Origin: Allobosea sp.
GTDB taxonomy: Bacteria; Pseudomonadota; Alphaproteobacteria; Rhizobiales; Beijerinckiaceae
Length of the DNA: 64,000 bases
NCBI RefSeq assembly: GCF_017308015.1
Contig: NZ_JAFKFW010000018.1
Coordinates: 43,485 to 107,484, forward strand
Direction of reading: 5' to 3'
The first letter of the stretch is position 1, and the number at the start of each line of letters is the position of its first letter. Below the pieces are notes generated by a model, which saw only the letters and a program-made list of their open reading frames with translations, made no database searches and was not told where the DNA came from. Of the stretch, positions 22,725 through 31,591 are shown in pieces. A program made the position numbers and the translations under genes.

Positions 22725-22772
22725 CGGGAGGCGCCGGGACGTTGCTATCCCGGCGCCTCCCGGTCTATTTTT
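22725..22772 (+). terminator. Strong bidirectional terminator between the amidase and the convergent unknown gene
   Basis: A perfect 15-bp stem CGGGAGGCGCCGGGA / TCCCGGCGCCTCCCG (22725-22739, 22748-22762) with an 8-base loop is followed by TCTATTTTT. It serves the amidase and also lies just downstream of the minus-strand gene ending at 22765. Confidence 0.92.
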
Positions 22773-23346
22773 CTGGCCCGTCCATGGCCGCCTCCAGTAC
22801 GGGCATCAGGTCCCAGATCCGGCGGTTCAGCGCGTGGAGGTCCTGTATCGTCCGGGAAATCTCCTCCAGCCGGTTGTCGTCGACGGGTTTGCGCAGGCCG
22901 AAGCGCAGGTTGCCGCGGCTCTCCTCCACCTTCATGTGCTGGGTATGAGTGATCTCGCCATCGGCATCGATGACGAAGGTCGCGTGGCTGAGATCGTTGC
23001 GCAGGCGCGTCGCGGCCGAGAAGCGTTCGACGATGTCGTTGATTTCGCTGCGGACCGCCTTGCCGAGCGGTGCGATCTTGGCGAGACGCTGCACCAGATC
23101 GAGCCGCGCCCGCGTCGTGTTCAGCGTGGCGAAGACGATGGCCGCAGCGCGTTCGTCCGTGCGGAGCAGCAGCATCAGCAGGTAGATGAACAGGCTCTCG
23201 TCGTTGGACCACGCAAGATTCAGGTCGCCTGCCAGGTTCATGAAGGCTAGCCTGCGTGTGGAGGAGCGTCGCGCGGAAACGATGTTCAGCGCGTCGAAAT
23301 CCGGGCGGGGCGGCAGGACCGATGATCCCTTCGCGGGCCTGCGCAT
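22765..23346 (-). CDS. Conserved-looking protein of unknown function with an RNDLSH (HEPN-like) motif
   Basis: I do not recognise the family. The 193-residue protein is predicted all-helical, soluble and without a signal peptide. Near the middle it reads 'LNLAWSNDESLFIYLLMLLL', then 'TTRARLDLVQRLAK', then 'RLRNDLSHATFVIDADGE'. The RNDLSH segment fits the R-x4-H motif of HEPN ribonuclease-type domains, and the surrounding helices fit the HEPN four-helix layout, but this is only a pattern match. ATG 23346 is preferred (GAAGGGGG upstream); a TTG at 23361 is in frame. It is divergent from the next gene with a 44-base gap. Codon use is normal for the genome, supporting a real gene. Confidence 0.65.
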   Translation of the reverse strand: MRRPAKGSSVLPPRPDFDALNIVSARRSSTRRLAFMNLAGDLNLAWSNDESLFIYLLMLLLRTDERAAAIVFATLNTTRARLDLVQRLAKIAPLGKAVRSEINDIVERFSAATRLRNDLSHATFVIDADGEITHTQHMKVEESRGNLRFGLRKPVDDNRLEEISRTIQDLHALNRRIWDLMPVLEAAMDGPEK

Positions 23347-23390
23347 CAGCACCCCCTTCAAGGAGAGATTTCGGATCGGGTGGGGACGCC

Positions 23391-23895: not shown

Positions 23896-24582
23896 CTAGA
23901 ACCGGGCATCGTTTTGCCCGCAACAACCCATCTGCAGTTCGGGGTCATCGAACAGGCTCAATTGGAGCTGCTGCTCACCGGATGCCTCGAAGCGCGGGCC
24001 CGGCCGACTTGCCGAAAACGCCAGCAATCGGTTCAGCGCGTCGAAGAATACGGCGTCGCTGCATGGTGAGGCGAGATTGTCGAGAGCGTTGAGGAAGCGC
24101 TCATAGCGTGCCCGGTAGATCGCCTGTCCCGGCTGTGGAGGCGCTGCCGCTTCCGGCAGGGGGCGACGGATATCGAGCGGCGGCCAGGTGTCCGCCGGCG
24201 GAACGCCGGAAGAGCTTTCTCTCGCGGTCAGCGCCGCCGCGATCTTGCCCTTCAGATGCCAGGCCGTCCGGACGGAAATGCCGAGGATCTGCCCGAGCTT
24301 CTGCGAACTCAGGCGATGACCGCTCGACATCAGGAGGTAGAGGCCCTGCAGCCAGACATGCATAGGGACATGGCTGTTCTGGAAAATCGTGCCGTGCCGA
24401 ACCGTGAAGGGCTTGCGGCAGGCATAGCATTTCCAGGTCCCGATCGAGCAACTCGATCCGCTCAGTCGGCCAAGACGGGAGCTTTCCCCGCAATGGGGGC
24501 AAACCGGACCATCGCGCCAGATCAACGCCTCCAGCGAAAGGAAGGCGGCTCGTTCGTCGTGCAGGCGGACGGCATACGTCAT
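23896..24582 (-). CDS. IS1595/ISXO2-type transposase zinc-ribbon protein lacking the catalytic domain
   Basis: Residues ~1-120 match the N-terminus of IS1595-family transposases: zinc ribbon 'CPHCGESSRLGRL' and 'WKCYACRKPFTVRHGTIFQN', then 'SHVPMHVWLQGLYLLMSSGHR' and the helix-turn-helix 'LSSQKLGQILGISVRTAWHL'. In active elements a DDE-type (DDNK/H) catalytic domain follows. Here it is replaced by ~110 unrelated residues (Pro-rich linker, 'YERFLNALDNLASPCSDAVF', acidic tail) and the gene then stops. No inverted repeats or target duplication were seen. It is therefore either a truncated element or, more interestingly, a domesticated DNA-binding protein, since the frame is intact and starts cleanly at 24582. 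Confidence 0.75.
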   Translation of the reverse strand: MTYAVRLHDERAAFLSLEALIWRDGPVCPHCGESSRLGRLSGSSCSIGTWKCYACRKPFTVRHGTIFQNSHVPMHVWLQGLYLLMSSGHRLSSQKLGQILGISVRTAWHLKGKIAAALTARESSSGVPPADTWPPLDIRRPLPEAAAPPQPGQAIYRARYERFLNALDNLASPCSDAVFFDALNRLLAFSASRPGPRFEASGEQQLQLSLFDDPELQMGCCGQNDARF

Positions 24583-25168
24583 TGCCAGCCTCCGACGTGC
24601 AGCAGTGAAGCGATCACTGGGTCGGTAAAAATCAACAAACGGTTAACGCAGGGTAGTCATTCGACACGTTGACGCATTCGCTACGTCATGGCTCTTTATA
24701 GCAACGGATTGCCTTCGAGGGAAACAAAATCGAAGAAGGCGTTCCAGCTTAGATTCCGACATAGCGAATTTGTTAGGCTGATTTATTCGTAATCAATGGC
24801 GATTGCGAAGCGTAATTATTTTGTCTTTCTCATATATTAATCCGCATTAATCATATGAAGTGCATTAAATTCTATAGTTATTTCATTTATTTCGATTGAT
24901 TGCTTCAGAGGAAAGGCGGGAGCCGAAGATTCAGTCGGAATGATTGTTCCGCAACAAGCAGTCGGGAGGGAAGCCAATGATTTAAGTCCGCCACTGGCCC
25001 GGGCTCGAAACCCGGAAATGGAAGGAAGTTTCGCTGCATCGGCGAGATGAATTCCGAGAATGCATGGCGTTTTCATTTAACCGACATCGTTTGTGACGGA
25101 ACGCGCAGCGCAGAAGAGAGGCGCATCACCGGCACGCCGCGATGTCTCCTGAAGGACAGGAGCGTGTC
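24583..25168. other. AT-rich intergenic region upstream of the type I secretion locus
   Basis: Roughly 586 bases without a supported gene. The stretch 24690-24950 is strikingly AT-rich for this genome (for example TTATTTCATTTATTTCGATT) and probably holds the promoter of the Q/G-rich protein gene, possibly bound by a xenogeneic silencer or other regulator. A tRNA T-arm-like hairpin at 24999-25015 is not part of a tRNA. Confidence 0.5.
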
Positions 25169-25993
25169 ATGGGTAGCCAGCAGCATCAGCCGAAGCATAA
25201 CGATCCCTCACAGGCCCAGGGTCAGGGCCAGCTTCAGGGGCAGGCCGAACTTCAGGCCCAGTTGCAGGGGCAAGGCCAGGGACAAGGACAAGGGCAAGGC
25301 CAGGGTCAGTCTCAGGGTCAGGCGCAATATGCCGGCCAGTACGCTGGCCAGGCCGTCGAAACCGACGTCTGGAATGCCAACGGCAATCTCAACGGCAATG
25401 GCAATCTCAATGCCAACGGCAACCTGAACGGCAACGTCAATTACAATGACAATTACCTCGGAAACGAGGTCAACAATGCCGTCAACAATTGTGTGAACGT
25501 TGATGTGAAGGTCGATCTCGACCTTGAAGGCTCGCTGGGCAGGCCGGCGGATGCCGACGCGATCGACATCGATTCGATCTGCGGGATCGAGGAATCGATC
25601 ATCATGCCGGACGTGGTCAGCCAGACTGTCGATTGCGGCAACAACTTCAACATCGACCAGGTCAACAACCTGACCGACAACGATACGCTGAACAACCCGT
25701 CGGTGAGCTACACCGCTGGCGGTCTCGCCGATGCGTGCTGCGATCCGTGCGGCGCCGATGCGAACTCGGTCGGCGACTTCTCGATGACCGCGACTGCGAC
25801 CGGTGGTACGGCCGATGCCTATATCGGTTCGCTCTCGGGCGATGACGGCGACTTCAGCGGCGCCGGCGCGGCCACAGCGGCGGTCAGCCTCTCCCAGGAA
25901 GCCTTTACCCAGTCGATCGTGCAGGGCGCGAACATCCAGTTCAACTCGATCGACCTGACGGTGGGCAGCGGGGACTCGCTCGACTCCCTGTAA
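25169..25993 (+). CDS. Low-complexity Q/G- and N-rich protein, probable type I secretion substrate or surface protein
   Basis: The 274-residue protein has no signal peptide. It runs through a Q-G tract (~15-55, alternating Gln and Gly), an N-G/N-L-N tract (~70-95, 'NGNLNGNGNLNANGNLNGN'), an acidic region 'NNCVNVDVKVDLDLEGSLGR', then 'NFNIDQVNNLTDNDTLNN' and a Gly/Ala/Ser-rich acidic C-terminus ending SGDSLDSL. Acidic, Ala/Gly-rich proteins without Sec signals and with a C-terminal export region are typical type I substrates. The exporter genes follow two genes downstream. The 'QVNNLTDND' segment recurs in the next protein. Start 25169 has ACAGGAG 7 bases upstream. A perfect terminator follows, so it is its own transcript. 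Confidence 0.75.
   Translation: MGSQQHQPKHNDPSQAQGQGQLQGQAELQAQLQGQGQGQGQGQGQGQSQGQAQYAGQYAGQAVETDVWNANGNLNGNGNLNANGNLNGNVNYNDNYLGNEVNNAVNNCVNVDVKVDLDLEGSLGRPADADAIDIDSICGIEESIIMPDVVSQTVDCGNNFNIDQVNNLTDNDTLNNPSVSYTAGGLADACCDPCGADANSVGDFSMTATATGGTADAYIGSLSGDDGDFSGAGAATAAVSLSQEAFTQSIVQGANIQFNSIDLTVGSGDSLDSL
25211..25330 (+). repeat. In-gene hexanucleotide repeat tract (CAG/CAA-GGN, Gln-Gly)
   Basis: About 120 bases of imperfect six-base repeats (CAGGGT, CAGGGC, CAAGGC, CAAGGA) encode alternating Gln-Gly with interspersed Leu/Ala/Glu. Because the unit is six bases, slippage changes length without shifting frame. The repeats are contiguous and coding, not CRISPR-like. Confidence 0.8.
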
Positions 25994-26012
25994 GTCCTGA
26001 TCGATCCAGAGG

Positions 26013-26041
26013 ACCGCGCGGGTTCGTCCCGCGCGGTTTTC
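26013..26041 (+). terminator. Rho-independent terminator after the Q/G-rich gene
   Basis: A perfect 10-bp stem ACCGCGCGGG / CCCGCGCGGT (26013-26022, 26028-26037) with a TTCGT loop runs straight into TTTT. It isolates the Q/G-rich gene from the repeat-protein/exporter transcript. Confidence 0.92.
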
Positions 26042-26125
26042 GCTCTGGAATGCCTTTTCTCATGCGCGACATGCGTTTGGACTTTTCCCGCCTGGCACCA
26101 GCCGGACGCAGCGGAGGATCGTGCC

Positions 26126-28111
26126 ATGCAGGCAGGCGGCATCACCGAGACCATCTGGCATTTCATCGGTTATCTGCATCTCGCCGATTCCGTGGCGCGC
26201 GCGCCGGAATTCTATGAGAGCGATCCGCCGCCGCCGCTATTGCCCGGGCTTTACGATCCCGCCTCGGAGCCGCTGCGCGGCCTTGCCTTCGACGAACTCG
26301 TCTCGATTCCGACCCCGATCCATGAGGCGTCGGTTTCGAATGCGCACGATAGCCTGGGCCATGCTTCGTCGCCCGCGAGCCTCGCCGGCCTGGCCCGGTC
26401 GCTGCCATCTGTTCTGCTGCCGCTGAAGCCGGTCGTCTTCCATGCCGAGGGGTATGGCATCGGCCTGCGCGCGACGCCCCGCGTCATCACCGCCGAGTAC
26501 CGGGAAGGCGGTATCGAGAACCAGATCCAGATTCGCCAAAGCAACGTCGCGGATGATCGCGATCTGATCACCTCGGATGCGATCCGCCATGCCGATGGCA
26601 GCCTCGTGGTTCCCGAAGAGCTGCAGCTTGGCGGTGATTTCGCCGCCCTCCTGGCACAAGCCGACGATGTCGCCCCGATAGGCATTCCCGATATGACGGC
26701 GGCGCTCCAGGCGGGGACCGGGGATATCGTCGCCATGATCTCGGGTCGTGACGCCGTCTGGGTCCAGACCGGGAGCCCCTATGCGGATGGCGGCCCGCCC
26801 GGCGCCGCGCCAGAAGGGCGTATCGTCGATGGGGTCGTCGGCGCTCCCGATCCTTACCAGCCGACTTTGCTCGACATCGCGCCCTGGCGCCCGGGGGAGG
26901 CGCCGGTCGAACTCGTCCATGAAGCGAAGCTGGATCTCACCGGCCCGACCGGAGGCGTCGCGACACTGGCCGAAACCGGCCTGAATACGCAGATCAACGC
27001 TGCCGTAATCGTCGACGCCAACGAGGCCACCGGCTCCATGATGGTCGGCGGCGATTATTTCTACAGCCGCGGCATCGTCCAGGTGAACATTCTGGCCGAT
27101 AACGATCATGTCGACATAGCCGTCGCTGGCAATCTCTCTCCCATCGTGAAGACCGCGGGAAACGAGATTCATAACATCGCAGAATTCATCACGCATGAAT
27201 CGACGATCGCGGTTCGCGGGGCCGCGGCCACTCCGCATTGGGTCGTCGACGTGATGCCCGGCGACTTCTACGACGTGAAGTCGATCGTCCAGTTCAACGG
27301 GCTCGACGACAACGACCGCACGGTCCAGGCGGAGTCCGGCACCTATTTCAATCTTGGCACTGGCGAGAACCAGCAGATCAATCTGACCAAGATCTTTGGT
27401 GCCGACCACTATGACATCATCATCGTCGGCGGCGACTATCATCGCGCGGACTGGATCTACCAGTACAACATCATGCTCGATCCCGACTACGCCAAGCTCT
27501 ACAGCACGGGCGGGGAGGGGGACGACACGACCGTCACCACAGGCTTCAACAGCCTGACCAACGCGGCCACCATCGAAAGCTACGATGCGACGGCGTTCAA
27601 GCCGATGCTCGACGCCCATCACGAGCTCCTCGGGCTTCTCGCGGATGGGGCCACCATCCTCATTCCCGACGCCGACTGGCAGCTCTACGGCAGTGCTTCG
27701 GGCACGCTCAGGATCCTCTACGTGCCCGGCGACTACTACGACATCAACGTCGTCACGCAGGTGAACTTCCTGGTCGACGGCGACCAGAGCCTCCAGGCCA
27801 GTGCCAGCGCGGGCACTGAGCAGGGGGTTGCCGCAGGTGGCAACAGCGCGCTCAACGAAGCCTATATCGTCGACCCCGGGCTCCTCTCGACCTCCAACTA
27901 TCTGGGTGGCGAGGCCTATGAAGAGGCGGTGCTGATCCAGGTCGACATCGTGACCGACAGCGACACGGTTACGATCCATGACACGACCACGCTGGTGCCG
28001 GAACTCGTCGCCTTCGCCGAGCACGCGGTGCAGGAGCCGGAGCCCGATTGCCCGCCCGCGCAGACCGTCGATCTCCAGCAGGATCATCTGACGTCGAGCA
28101 TCATGGCCTGA
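26126..28111 (+). CDS. Repeat protein associated with type I secretion, unknown function
   Basis: I know no named family for this 661-residue acidic protein without a signal peptide. From about residue 280 it contains five copies of a composite repeat. Each has an Asn-rich element ('GLNTQINAAVIVDANEA', 'GFNSLTNAATIESYDA') followed by a beta-like element with Gly-Asp-Tyr and Q-x-N-x-x-x-D-x-D: 'VGGDYFYSRGIVQVNILADN' (~307), 'MPGDFYDVKSIVQFNGLDDN' (~377), 'VGGDYHRADWIYQYNIMLDP' (~434), 'VPGDYYDINVVTQVNFLVDG' (~533) and 'LGGEAYEEAVLIQVDIVTDS' (~592). The Asp/Asn pattern suggests metal binding or a stacked beta structure. GGAGG precedes the ATG. It is followed after 41 bases by the ABC exporter gene, so it is likely exported or part of the system. 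Confidence 0.8.
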   Translation: MQAGGITETIWHFIGYLHLADSVARAPEFYESDPPPPLLPGLYDPASEPLRGLAFDELVSIPTPIHEASVSNAHDSLGHASSPASLAGLARSLPSVLLPLKPVVFHAEGYGIGLRATPRVITAEYREGGIENQIQIRQSNVADDRDLITSDAIRHADGSLVVPEELQLGGDFAALLAQADDVAPIGIPDMTAALQAGTGDIVAMISGRDAVWVQTGSPYADGGPPGAAPEGRIVDGVVGAPDPYQPTLLDIAPWRPGEAPVELVHEAKLDLTGPTGGVATLAETGLNTQINAAVIVDANEATGSMMVGGDYFYSRGIVQVNILADNDHVDIAVAGNLSPIVKTAGNEIHNIAEFITHESTIAVRGAAATPHWVVDVMPGDFYDVKSIVQFNGLDDNDRTVQAESGTYFNLGTGENQQINLTKIFGADHYDIIIVGGDYHRADWIYQYNIMLDPDYAKLYSTGGEGDDTTVTTGFNSLTNAATIESYDATAFKPMLDAHHELLGLLADGATILIPDADWQLYGSASGTLRILYVPGDYYDINVVTQVNFLVDGDQSLQASASAGTEQGVAAGGNSALNEAYIVDPGLLSTSNYLGGEAYEEAVLIQVDIVTDSDTVTIHDTTTLVPELVAFAEHAVQEPEPDCPPAQTVDLQQDHLTSSIMA

Positions 28112-28152
28112 GGCGCAGCAACGAGACGTCAAAAGAACAGGACGGGAAGGGC

Positions 28153-30228
28153 ATGAGCGAAAAAAGCGAAGCACTGCCGCCGGCCAGACCGCCTTCGGCG
28201 GGGTCGCCACCGGTCCGCCTGATCGGCTTGCCGCAGGCGATCGGCCTGGCGGGCGGGACGCCCGACGCTACGGCCAACAGCAACAGCCGCATCGGTCTGG
28301 CACCTGTCGCCTCGCCCCCGTTTCCCGCAGCGGGCACCCCGCGCGCCGATGCACGTGGCGATGGTCAGCCGCTACCCGAGCCCGTTCCGTTGCGTCCGAA
28401 AGCGGATGCCGAGGCGCCGAAGACTGCCCATGACGGCGATCGCGGCGGCAAAGGCGGAGGCGGAGGTCATGGCGGCGGTGGCGGGTCCGGCCACGGCACG
28501 CCGATCGAACAGCGCCTCGGCGATCGGGATTTCAAGCAGGTCCTCGGCCAGGGCCTTTCCGGAGCACGGCACAACCTGCTGATCGTGGCGGTGTTCTCGG
28601 TCGTGGTGAATACTTTGGTGCTCGCCGTCCCGATCTATCTCTTCCAGATGTCGGACCGCGTGCTGACCAGCCGCAGCCTGGACACGCTGATCATGCTGTC
28701 GCTCATCGTCATGGTCGCGATCGGGGCGCATGTTCTGCTCGACATGGTGCGCCGCTTCATGCTGATGCGGGTGGCGGTCGATGTCGAAAGCCGGCTCGGC
28801 GGCCCCGTGCTCGCGGCAGCGGCCAAAGCCGCCCAGACCGGCTCCAACCGCGAGTTCCAGACGCTGGCCGATCTCCAGCAGATCCGCAGCTTCCTGACCG
28901 GCCCGGTGATACTGACGATGCTCGATGCGCCGACGGCCCCGATCTACCTGCTGGCGGTTTATCTGATCCATCCGCATCTTGGCTACATCGTCACCATTGC
29001 GGCGGTCGTGCTCTTCGTCATCGCCTATTTCAACCAGCAGTTCACCGCCGTGCCGTTCGCGCGCTCCAGCGCCTTCTCGACGCGCGCCAATCTCCAGTCG
29101 GAGGCGATGTCGCGCAACGCGCAGGTCATCAATGCGATGGGCATGATCCCGGAGGGCGTGCTGATGTGGGGCCGCGAGACGGCTGAATCCCTAAAGGCCC
29201 AGGTCAGCGCCCAGGACCGCAACATCCTGATGACCGGCGCCTCCAAGTTCTTCCGGCTGGGCACGCAGGTCGCGATGCTCGGCTGGGGCGCCATGCTCTC
29301 GCTCGAAGGTCAACTGACCGGCGGCATGGTCATCGCCTCCTCGGTCGTCGCCGGCCGCGCGCTGGCGCCGATGGAGGGCACGATCGAGGGCTGGCGCAGC
29401 TTCATCCACGCGCGCGCCGCCTTCCAGCGCGTCAAGGCGCTGCTCCAGGCCTCGCCGCTCAATCTCGACCGGCTGAAGCTGCCGAGCCCGAAAGGCCGCC
29501 TCGACGTCGAGCGCATCCTCTATGTGCCGCCGCCGAACAAGAAGGTCATCCTGAACGGCATCAGCTTCAGCCTCGAGCCGGGGGATTCGCTCGCAATCGT
29601 CGGCGCCTCCGGCTGCGGGAAATCGACGCTCGCGCGCATGCTCGTCGGCTCGATCTCGCCGACGGCCGGCACGGTGCGGCTTGACCGGATGGAGCAGCGC
29701 AACTGGGATCCGCGTCAGTTCGGCGAGAATGTCGGCTATCTCCCGCAGGATGTTCAGCTCTTCCCGGCCTCGATCAAGGCCAATATCGCCCGTATGCGGG
29801 AGGACGCGTCGGACGCCGATGTCTTCGAGGCGGCCGAGATCGCCGATATCCACGAGATGATCGCGCAGTTCGCCCACGGCTACGAGACGCAGATCGGCAT
29901 CGATGGCGCTCCGCTCTCGGGCGGGCAGAAGCAGCGGCTCGGCCTCGCGCGGGCCTTCTACGGCAATCCGCGGCTGGTTGTGCTGGACGAGCCGAATTCC
30001 AATCTCGACGTGCTGGGCGAGGCGGCTCTCGCCCGCGCCTTCGAGCGGGCCAAGACGCGCGGCATGACCGTGGTCGCCGTGACGCAACGGCCGTCCCTGC
30101 TGCGCAGTGTCGACAAGATCATGATGATCAAGGACGGCGCCGTGCAGGCCATCGGCACCCGCGACGAAATCCTGCCGATGATCGTGGGGCAGCGCAGCAT
30201 CGATGGCGCCGCGCCGCGGCCGCAATAG
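28153..30228 (+). CDS. Type I secretion system ABC transporter (permease/ATPase fusion)
   Basis: This inner-membrane exporter of ~691 residues has three parts. A ~130-residue Pro-rich and then Gly/His-rich cytoplasmic N-terminus ends in 'GGKGGGGGHGGGGGSGHG'. A six-helix transmembrane domain follows ('LLIVAVFSVVVNTLVLAVPI' onward). The C-terminal ATPase has Walker A 'GASGCGKST', signature 'LSGGQKQRLGLARAF' and Walker B 'LVVLDEPNSNLD'. It lacks a C39 peptidase domain, so the substrate is not a double-glycine bacteriocin; the PrtD/LapB-like subfamily exports RTX-type or adhesin proteins. GGGAAGG precedes ATG 28153. The partner adaptor follows 22 bases on. No TolC-type outer-membrane gene lies in the window. 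Confidence 0.93.
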   Translation: MSEKSEALPPARPPSAGSPPVRLIGLPQAIGLAGGTPDATANSNSRIGLAPVASPPFPAAGTPRADARGDGQPLPEPVPLRPKADAEAPKTAHDGDRGGKGGGGGHGGGGGSGHGTPIEQRLGDRDFKQVLGQGLSGARHNLLIVAVFSVVVNTLVLAVPIYLFQMSDRVLTSRSLDTLIMLSLIVMVAIGAHVLLDMVRRFMLMRVAVDVESRLGGPVLAAAAKAAQTGSNREFQTLADLQQIRSFLTGPVILTMLDAPTAPIYLLAVYLIHPHLGYIVTIAAVVLFVIAYFNQQFTAVPFARSSAFSTRANLQSEAMSRNAQVINAMGMIPEGVLMWGRETAESLKAQVSAQDRNILMTGASKFFRLGTQVAMLGWGAMLSLEGQLTGGMVIASSVVAGRALAPMEGTIEGWRSFIHARAAFQRVKALLQASPLNLDRLKLPSPKGRLDVERILYVPPPNKKVILNGISFSLEPGDSLAIVGASGCGKSTLARMLVGSISPTAGTVRLDRMEQRNWDPRQFGENVGYLPQDVQLFPASIKANIARMREDASDADVFEAAEIADIHEMIAQFAHGYETQIGIDGAPLSGGQKQRLGLARAFYGNPRLVVLDEPNSNLDVLGEAALARAFERAKTRGMTVVAVTQRPSLLRSVDKIMMIKDGAVQAIGTRDEILPMIVGQRSIDGAAPRPQ

Positions 30229-30250
30229 CGCCAGGTTGGGGAGTGGGCAC

Positions 30251-31591
30251 ATGAGCGTCCAATTGGTCTCGCAGCCCTGGTACAGCGATGTGCCGCGCAG
30301 CACCCGCGCCGCTACGATCGGCGGCGCCGTCATCGTCGCTGTCACCGTGATGGGCTTCGGCGTCTGGGGCAATACCGCGCCGATCGCAGGAGCGGTCATC
30401 GCCACCGGCGTCTTCGTCACCACCGGCCAGAACAAGACGATCCAGCATCTGGAAGGCGGTGTGATCCGCGAGATTCTCGTCAGAGAAGGCGATGTCGTCG
30501 TGCCCGGCCAGCCATTGGTCAAGCTCGACGACACCTCCGCCCGGGCCGAATTGCGGCGCCATGAGCTCAAGCTCTATCGCCTCGAGATGATCGAGGCGCG
30601 GCTCCGGGCCGAGATCGCCGGCCTCGATGATTTCGTCGGGCCGCCGCATCTGCTCGACAAGCGGGCTGACCCCGATATCGCCGTGCTGTACGCAGCGCAG
30701 CGCACGGCCTTCCGCGCCCGGCAGAACAATATGGCGAGCGAGATCGCGGCTCATCAGAAGAGCATCGATGCGCTGGAGGAGAAGATCGCCGGCAGCAAGG
30801 TGCAGCTCGCCGGTGTCCAGCAGCAGTCGCAATTGCTGAAGGAAGAGCTGGAGGGCAAGCAGGCCCTGCTGCAGCGGGGCTACATCCGCAAGCCGGAGGT
30901 GCTCTCGTTGCAACGCCTGGCCGCCAATCTGGCGGGCGAGGCCGGGCGCATCAGCGGCGATATCGGGGATTCCCGCGAGCGGATCGCGCGCTCGGTCGAA
31001 CAGATCGACGGTGTTCGCAAGAACGCCCAGAAGATCGCCTCCGACCAGCTCCAGGAAATCAATGCCGATCTCAACGATGTGCGCGAGCGCATCCACACCG
31101 TGAAGGGCGTGCTCGACCGCTCCAACATCACCGCGCCGGTCAAGGGCACGGTGGTCAAGCTGCGCTATCACACCTCCGGCGGCGTCATCGAGGCCGGCAA
31201 GAACATCATGGAGATCGTCTCGCTGCAGGACGAACTCATCATCGAGGCGCGCGTGCGTCCGCAAGACATCGACAAGATCAGGCACAGCCAGGTCGCCACG
31301 GTGCGCCTGACGGCGCTCAACCAGCGTATCACGCCCATGGTCAGCGGCCGGGTCATCTACATTTCGGCCGATGCGCTGCCCGACGAGAAGCAGCGCGCCT
31401 ATCCCGCCGTACCGGACCTCTACGTCGTCCGCGCCCGACTCGATCCGGGCAGTCTCGTCGGTCTGCACGATTTCCAGCCGACGCCGGGAATGCCGGCCGA
31501 CATGTATATCCAGACGGCCGAGCGCACCTTTTTCGAGTATCTGATGCAGCCGCTGAAGGACAGCATGGCCCGCGCCTTCCGCGAAACCTGA
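30251..31591 (+). CDS. HlyD-family type I secretion membrane-fusion (adaptor) protein
   Basis: This periplasmic adaptor joins the ABC exporter to an outer-membrane channel. The ~446-residue protein has one N-terminal membrane anchor ('ATIGGAVIVAVTVMGFGVWG'), a lipoyl/barrel-sandwich half ('KTIQHLEGGVIREILVREGD', 'VVVPGQPLVKLDD'), a long coiled coil (~130-290, heptad-rich 'EIAAHQKSIDALEEKIAGSK'), the returning lipoyl half ('RSNITAPVKGTVVKLRYHTS') and a beta-barrel with a terminal domain. These are the HlyD/PrtE features in standard order. Start 30251 has GGGGAG upstream. It is co-transcribed with the exporter. A dyad follows at 31641. Confidence 0.93.
   Translation: MSVQLVSQPWYSDVPRSTRAATIGGAVIVAVTVMGFGVWGNTAPIAGAVIATGVFVTTGQNKTIQHLEGGVIREILVREGDVVVPGQPLVKLDDTSARAELRRHELKLYRLEMIEARLRAEIAGLDDFVGPPHLLDKRADPDIAVLYAAQRTAFRARQNNMASEIAAHQKSIDALEEKIAGSKVQLAGVQQQSQLLKEELEGKQALLQRGYIRKPEVLSLQRLAANLAGEAGRISGDIGDSRERIARSVEQIDGVRKNAQKIASDQLQEINADLNDVRERIHTVKGVLDRSNITAPVKGTVVKLRYHTSGGVIEAGKNIMEIVSLQDELIIEARVRPQDIDKIRHSQVATVRLTALNQRITPMVSGRVIYISADALPDEKQRAYPAVPDLYVVRARLDPGSLVGLHDFQPTPGMPADMYIQTAERTFFEYLMQPLKDSMARAFRET

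Follow-up and report, generated by a model that had tools for sequence, protein, structure and literature searches.

Introduction

Among the type I secretion systems of rhizobia, the PrsDE exporter is credited with at least 13 dissimilar proteins, and no substrate is identified for the toaDE and tobDE systems in the accessible part of the same study (PMC2275737). The Rap proteins of Rhizobium leguminosarum are alphaproteobacterial, leave the cell via a type I system and play a role in the biofilm matrix (accessible parts of PMC9298526 and PMC4018554). Here, we describe a locus in a stretch of 64,000 nucleotides from Allobosea sp. (contig NZ_JAFKFW010000018.1, positions 43,485 to 107,484), which is called the window in the following and to which positions refer unless a locus is named. 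The locus combines genes for two putative cargo proteins, a Gln/Gly- and Asn-rich protein (P1) and a repeat protein (P2), with those for a PrtD-type ATP-binding cassette (ABC) exporter and a HlyD-type adaptor (Table 1). No description of this operon was recognised in the open-access literature, a body of work that leaves most subscription journals outside its reach, and the accessible parts of PMC8319176, PMC4062626, PMC4018554, PMC2275737, PMC3806328, PMC3521004 and PMC5959193 do not describe the P1/P2 family.

Linkage of P2 to one exporter subfamily

The earlier note on this DNA proposed a cognate secreted repeat-protein family, to be checked by its co-occurrence with the exporter subfamily. 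Both the distribution over genomes and the gene arrangement are in good agreement with this proposal, and we regard the pairing of a P2 cargo family with one cognate exporter subfamily as strongly supported. Within the family, 199 evenly drawn genomes were searched for P2 with the single protein as well as with a profile of 35 rows, and both searches gave the same 22 genomes. PrtD-like exporters match at 1e-60 or better in 101 of the 199. Exporters scoring at least 711 bits are present in 22 genomes (the next best reaches 441 bits), and these are exactly the 22 genomes with P2, without a discordant case. In the order sample, where P2 occurs in 26 out of 297 genomes, all 24 exporters with at least 756 bits reside in P2 genomes and lower-scoring ones are mostly found without P2; the remaining two P2 genomes hold exporters at 653 and 624 bits.

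P2, exporter and adaptor lie on one strand in all 51 distinct loci that were fetched, i.e., 39 from P2 genomes, four from named matches, two further ones and six from plasmids. The window is not counted among them, and locus L062 was left out since it stems from the same genome as L032. A P1-like gene is located upstream of P2 in 48 of the 51 loci, recognised in 36 cases by a profile and in five by the 64-residue unit model described below; the others are taken up where the proposed function is weighed. Two of the three loci without such a gene (L088 and L093) stop at a contig edge, and the third (L118) has reading-frame trouble. Over both samples, which share two P2 genomes, 46 different genomes carry P2. 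Its adjacency to the exporter was viewed directly in the window and in 40 fetched loci, and is derived from match coordinates only in genomes G203, G303, G333 and G413. In the fragmented assembly G124, P2 and exporter are placed on different contigs.

In a tree of 69 exporters, 53 are P2-linked, and 50 of these form a single clade (98/82). The linkage of P2 and exporter is thus old.

Elsewhere, P2 is rare. A class draw contributed one further genome among 385, and a phylum draw of 299 genomes contained one outside the order. The four named matches are three Bosea and one Rhizobiales bacterium. Among plasmid records, 31 out of 72,556 match P2, with Ensifer, Sinorhizobium, Shinella, Paracoccus, Sulfitobacter, Rhodobacter and others as hosts, and six of these 31 matches were opened. 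In viral contigs, 14 stretches match a pattern, none of which codes for a relative. The P2 homolog of plasmid locus L114 (5209-7317) carries the annotation "type I secretion protein ATPase", a label that recurs on two further Sulfitobacter plasmid records and is likely a misannotation in all three cases.

Repeat elements of P2 and P1

Five repeats with a Q-x-N-x-L/V-x-D-x-D core had been reported for P2 by the earlier note, together with a single such core in P1 and the suggestion of stacked beta repeats. Written as Q-x-[ND]-x-[LVIM]-x-D-x-D, the core is indeed present five times in P2, with the Q at residues 319, 389, 446, 545 and 605. The mean over shuffled versions of P2 is 0.006, and none of 20,000 shuffles reaches five. 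The alignment of 35 P2 proteins resolves two alternating elements. Element B, G-x(7)-[IL]-x-Q-x-N-x-[LV]-x-D-x-D, has six copies, each with a conserved D-x-D at its end; the first copy, marked by the invariant Q138, is degenerate in the window. Element A, G-x-N-x(3)-N-x-A-x-[IF], which is absent from the earlier note's list, has five copies, of which the third is weak.

Conservation in P2 falls on alternate residues. The autocorrelation of column information amounts to 0.50, 0.32 and 0.24 at lags 2, 4 and 6, versus values between -0.07 and -0.02 at lags 1, 3, 5 and 7, and 2,000 shuffles do not exceed 0.165 at lag 2. Conservation at every second residue is the pattern of a beta strand with one side buried, which fits the idea of stacked beta repeats; the strands of P2 may stack upon each other.

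In P1, the single core (Q173) was found as described, but it is weak by itself, as 168 of 20,000 shuffles also reach one. More can be learned from P1 of other genera. The bodies of these proteins vary greatly, being Q/G-rich, N/G-rich, D/N/S-rich or G-rich, in open reading frames (ORFs) of 198 to 1,569 residues. In the four genomes of genus g18 (loci L078 to L081), P1 consists of approximately seven tandem units of 64 residues, each comprising a B core, a curlin-like stretch and an A core, and P1 of locus L101, from another family, carries at least three such units. A model of this unit, built from P1 of other genera, matches the window's P2 with 14.0 bits and its P1 with 12.7 bits, where the best of 5,400 shuffles attains 9.4 bits; 26 out of 54 P1 and P2 relatives score above that value. 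Both elements are thus common to P1 and P2, the match of P1 being modest.

Two P1 relatives, in Ensifer (L115, 3268-5010) and Paracoccus (L116, 3189-5000), have long Gly/Asp/Ala-rich bodies, which are reminiscent of PE-PGRS proteins. An apparent P1-P2 fusion in Rhodobacter sp. CZR27 (L118, 2563-7116, annotated as one coding sequence) was rejected, as its middle looks like the end of P1 in another frame.

Family assignment, gene boundaries and neighbourhood

The earlier note knew of no named family with this repeat, and no credible family for either cargo emerges from Pfam, NCBIfam or solved structures. Pfam gives no match to either cargo of the window, and in NCBIfam there are two chance-level matches only, both for P1. 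No two of the 35 P2 relatives match the same Pfam or NCBIfam family. The NCBIfam scans covered these 35 P2 proteins, P1 of the window, four other unit-bearing P1 proteins, one further P1 and three P2 proteins, the alignment set of 19 P1 proteins lying outside this coverage. A weak Pfam match to EBNA2_Core in six of the 19 P1 relatives (best E 0.028) was taken as low complexity. Against solved structures, P2 of the window alone yields two chance-level matches (E 0.66 and 0.83), the P2 profile nothing up to E 10, and P1 two chance matches to Asn repeats only.

Exporter and adaptor, which the earlier note had placed on the same strand after the cargo genes, were both recovered above curated cut-offs: the exporter scores 695.7 bits with TIGR01842 (cut-off 510.15) and the adaptor 368.3 bits with TIGR01843 (cut-off 208.65). 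Two ORFs on other contigs of the genome contain TolC-type OEP domains above cut-off and are candidate channels for the exporter. All four genes of the locus are under purifying selection, with ratios of nonsynonymous to synonymous substitution rates between 0.07 and 0.44 in 12 comparisons with three Bosea relatives. The exporter shares 97% identity with its counterpart in Bosea sp. 47.2.35; this and the three named Bosea matches make it probable that the window's genome is a Bosea.

Coordinates and strands of the four genes agree with those given earlier, including the P1 start at 25169. This start is likely, with caggag located 5' of it; the alternative in-frame ATG is at 25142. The starts of exporter and adaptor listed in Table 1 are likewise the likely ones, set by comparison with relatives and not by the longest ORFs. 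Upstream of P1, some 590 base pairs without a listed gene (24583-25168) are AT-rich by eye in relation to their surroundings and likely represent a control region.

Table 1. Features of the locus and adjacent genes, with positions in the window.
Feature	Position	Strand	Evidence and remarks
P1, Q/G- and N-rich putative cargo	25169..25993	+	start inferred; B core, and A core near the C terminus
P2, 661-residue putative cargo	26126..28111	+	six B and five A elements
PrtD-type ABC exporter	28153..30228	+	TIGR01842, tree; longest ORF from 28048
HlyD-type adaptor	30251..31591	+	TIGR01843; longest ORF from 30203
B element 0 of P2	26507..26563	+	degenerate in the window; Q138 invariant in 35 relatives
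B element 1 of P2 (Q319)	27050..27106	+	core motif and 35-P2 alignment
B element 2 of P2 (Q389)	27260..27316	+	core motif and 35-P2 alignment
B element 3 of P2 (Q446)	27431..27487	+	core motif and 35-P2 alignment
B element 4 of P2 (Q545)	27728..27784	+	core motif and 35-P2 alignment
B element 5 of P2 (Q605)	27908..27964	+	core motif and 35-P2 alignment
A element 1 of P2	26978..27010	+	35-P2 alignment
A element 2 of P2	27155..27187	+	35-P2 alignment
A element 3 of P2, weakest copy	27362..27394	+	35-P2 alignment
A element 4 of P2	27542..27574	+	35-P2 alignment
A element 5 of P2	27836..27868	+	35-P2 alignment
B core in P1	25643..25684	+	matched by 64-residue unit model; conserved in 19 relatives
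A core in P1 (QSIVQGANIQFNS)	25901..25948	+	matched by 64-residue unit model; conserved in 19 relatives
198-residue protein with R-N-x-[LFY]-[SNH]-H	22765..23361	-	kin beside the operon; no Pfam family
Zinc-ribbon protein	23896..24582	-	Zn_ribbon_IS1595; weak helix-turn-helix match

Several kinds of genes recur in the vicinity of the operon. A protein with the motif R-N-x-[LFY]-[SNH]-H, mostly 159 to 229 residues long, is encoded near it in 20 of the 51 loci, and the motif is present in 17 out of 17 aligned sequences; the spacing of the motif in the window's member is, we assume, similar to that of HEPN proteins. LuxR-type (GerE) regulators are found near the operon in 15 loci, IS1595-type zinc-ribbon proteins in 12 and GNAT-TPR proteins in ten. 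The zinc-ribbon protein of the window is perhaps a regulator derived from a transposase. On two Sulfitobacter plasmids, the operon adjoins galE and a gene for UDP-glucuronate decarboxylase, neighbours that may connect it to the biofilm plasmids of roseobacters.

Proposed function and alternative explanations

In our view, the locus rather probably encodes a dedicated type I system which exports a two-protein extracellular structural polymer of the cell surface or the biofilm. P1 and P2 would leave the cell in one step via the PrtD-type exporter, the HlyD adaptor and a TolC-like channel encoded elsewhere. Outside the cell, Asn/Gln-lined strands of P2 and matching segments of P1 would stack as rungs of a beta-solenoid. 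P2, which is conserved at both ends and mostly 593 to 720 residues long, would act as the nucleating or anchoring subunit. P1, with a low-complexity body that differs greatly between genera, would be the bulk or adhesive subunit of the polymer.

Several observations weigh against this interpretation. The link between cargo and exporter is not absolute: nine exporters of 525 to 646 bits were followed up, their surroundings being fetched from order-sample genomes without a P2 match in the first search, and eight of them lack P2, while the ninth (L195) has a weak one that scores 44 bits with the profile. L100, L101 and L195 are P2-linked exporters outside the main clade, and three exporters without P2 nest with the former two. 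Seven of the 48 P1-like genes were assigned by composition and position alone. In the operon, no gene for an outer-membrane channel was noticed, and secretion and polymerisation, as well as the division of labour and the matrix role, are steps that we infer from the genes.

A replacement or a loss of cargo has probably happened at least once. At L192 to L194, where exporters of 610 to 646 bits occur without P2, other ORFs are located upstream, the one at L192 being Pro/Cys-rich at its start; these ORFs may code for replacement cargo.

A tentative alternative is a curli-like functional amyloid that leaves through the ABC exporter and not through CsgG; P1 would then correspond to the major subunit CsgA and P2 to the nucleator CsgB. 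The exact curlin motif, Q-x-G-x(2)-N-x-A-x(3)-Q, is found four to seven times in the four P1 proteins of g18, which 0 out of 5,000 shuffles achieve, but the fifth unit-bearing P1, that of L101, has no strict motif. The unit model recovers repeats of the E. coli proteins CsgB (15.9 bits) and CsgA (11.8 bits), the best of 4,000 shuffles being 9.1 bits. When 22 operon-bearing genomes were scanned in six frames, genomes G115 and G090 matched Curlin_rpt only within this P1 (E 0.034 and 0.084); these matches are below the curated cut-off, as is that of PF07012 to one of the four g18 P1 proteins (13.5 bits), and the other two g18 genomes, G018 and G058, yielded nothing. Of the 22 genomes, 21 lack CsgG, among them the window's genome. 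Against the curli-like explanation, the minimal motif Q-x-G-x(2)-N, a definition taken from the accessible part of PMC3521004, does not occur at all in the 35 P2 and 19 P1 proteins, those of the window included, where shuffles contain 4.2 and 7.8 on average, and with the P2 and P1 profiles, CsgA and CsgB do not exceed the scores of shuffles. With PF07012 also unmatched in the window's genome, curlin membership of the window proteins was rejected; on motif evidence, curlin is a likeness of P1 in some relatives. Curlin repeats located elsewhere in the genome were seen in G083, where CsgG is encoded near them, and in G304 and G348 (loci L149 and L150), where they score above the Pfam cut-off and no CsgG was found. 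It is also conceivable, if doubtful, that the P1/P2 loci encode a class of beta-solenoid or amyloid fibres for which an ABC (type I) exporter of their own, acting in one step, replaces the CsgG or Fap routes. In this fibre class, P2 would be the constant nucleator and P1 would be remodelled between genera, ranging from one degenerate repeat with a Q/N/G-rich body to seven exact 64-residue units bearing the curlin motif.

RTX proteins are the usual cargo of type I systems (accessible part of PMC2275737), and each B element is closed by a D-x-D. P1 and P2 could alternatively be secreted adhesins akin to RTX or Rap proteins, with calcium bound at these D-x-D ends and folding thereby induced after export. 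We regard this as unlikely, because the RTX nonapeptide is absent from P1 and P2 of the window as well as from the 19 P1 proteins and occurs only twice in the 35 P2 relatives (shuffle mean 0.73). Pfam scans report no RTX, cadherin-like or other adhesin family, and RTX membership of P1 and P2 was dismissed on the nonapeptide and Pfam results. Some type I exporters carry bacteriocins, but a secreted antagonistic protein, e.g., a bacteriocin or a contact toxin, would be a very improbable product of this locus. A bacteriocin-type exporter of a rhizobium is on record (accessible part of PMC2275737), but the exporter of the window is PrtD-like, the scans of P1 and P2 show no toxin domain beyond chance-level matches, and no recurrent neighbour cluster listed above resembles an immunity gene.

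Comparison with known systems

Two unnamed protein families and a matching exporter subfamily are defined in this study. Exporter and adaptor of the window resemble PrtD/PrtE-type systems such as AprD and PrsD in that both meet the curated cut-offs of these types; they differ in that a distinct exporter subfamily is tied to two unnamed cargo proteins that are not of the RTX kind.

With curli, made of the major subunit CsgA and the nucleator CsgB, the locus shares the pairing of two proteins with common Q/N-rich repeats, and in g18 even exact curlin motifs in P1. A LuxR-type gene near some of the loci recalls csgD beside csgBA, a likeness that is generic as far as the LuxR helix-turn-helix is concerned. 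In contrast to curli, an ABC exporter stands in the place of CsgG, which nearly all scanned genomes lack, and the window proteins have neither the curlin motif nor similarity to CsgA and CsgB beyond that of shuffles. Should P1 and P2 polymerise, an ABC-exporter route would be added to the known routes of Gram-negative functional amyloids.

The Rap proteins, as presented in the accessible parts of the papers cited above, come close to the role proposed for P1 and P2, being alphaproteobacterial, type I secreted and part of the biofilm matrix, a role that is suggested here by the genes alone. They are distinguished by their cadherin-like Ra/CHDL domains, which Pfam does not find in P1 or P2, and by their export via PrsDE. 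The toaDE and tobDE systems, according to the same partial record, are orphans with respect to substrate, a gap that a cargo family of the P1/P2 kind could fill; such a family makes orphan type I exporters of this sort testable.
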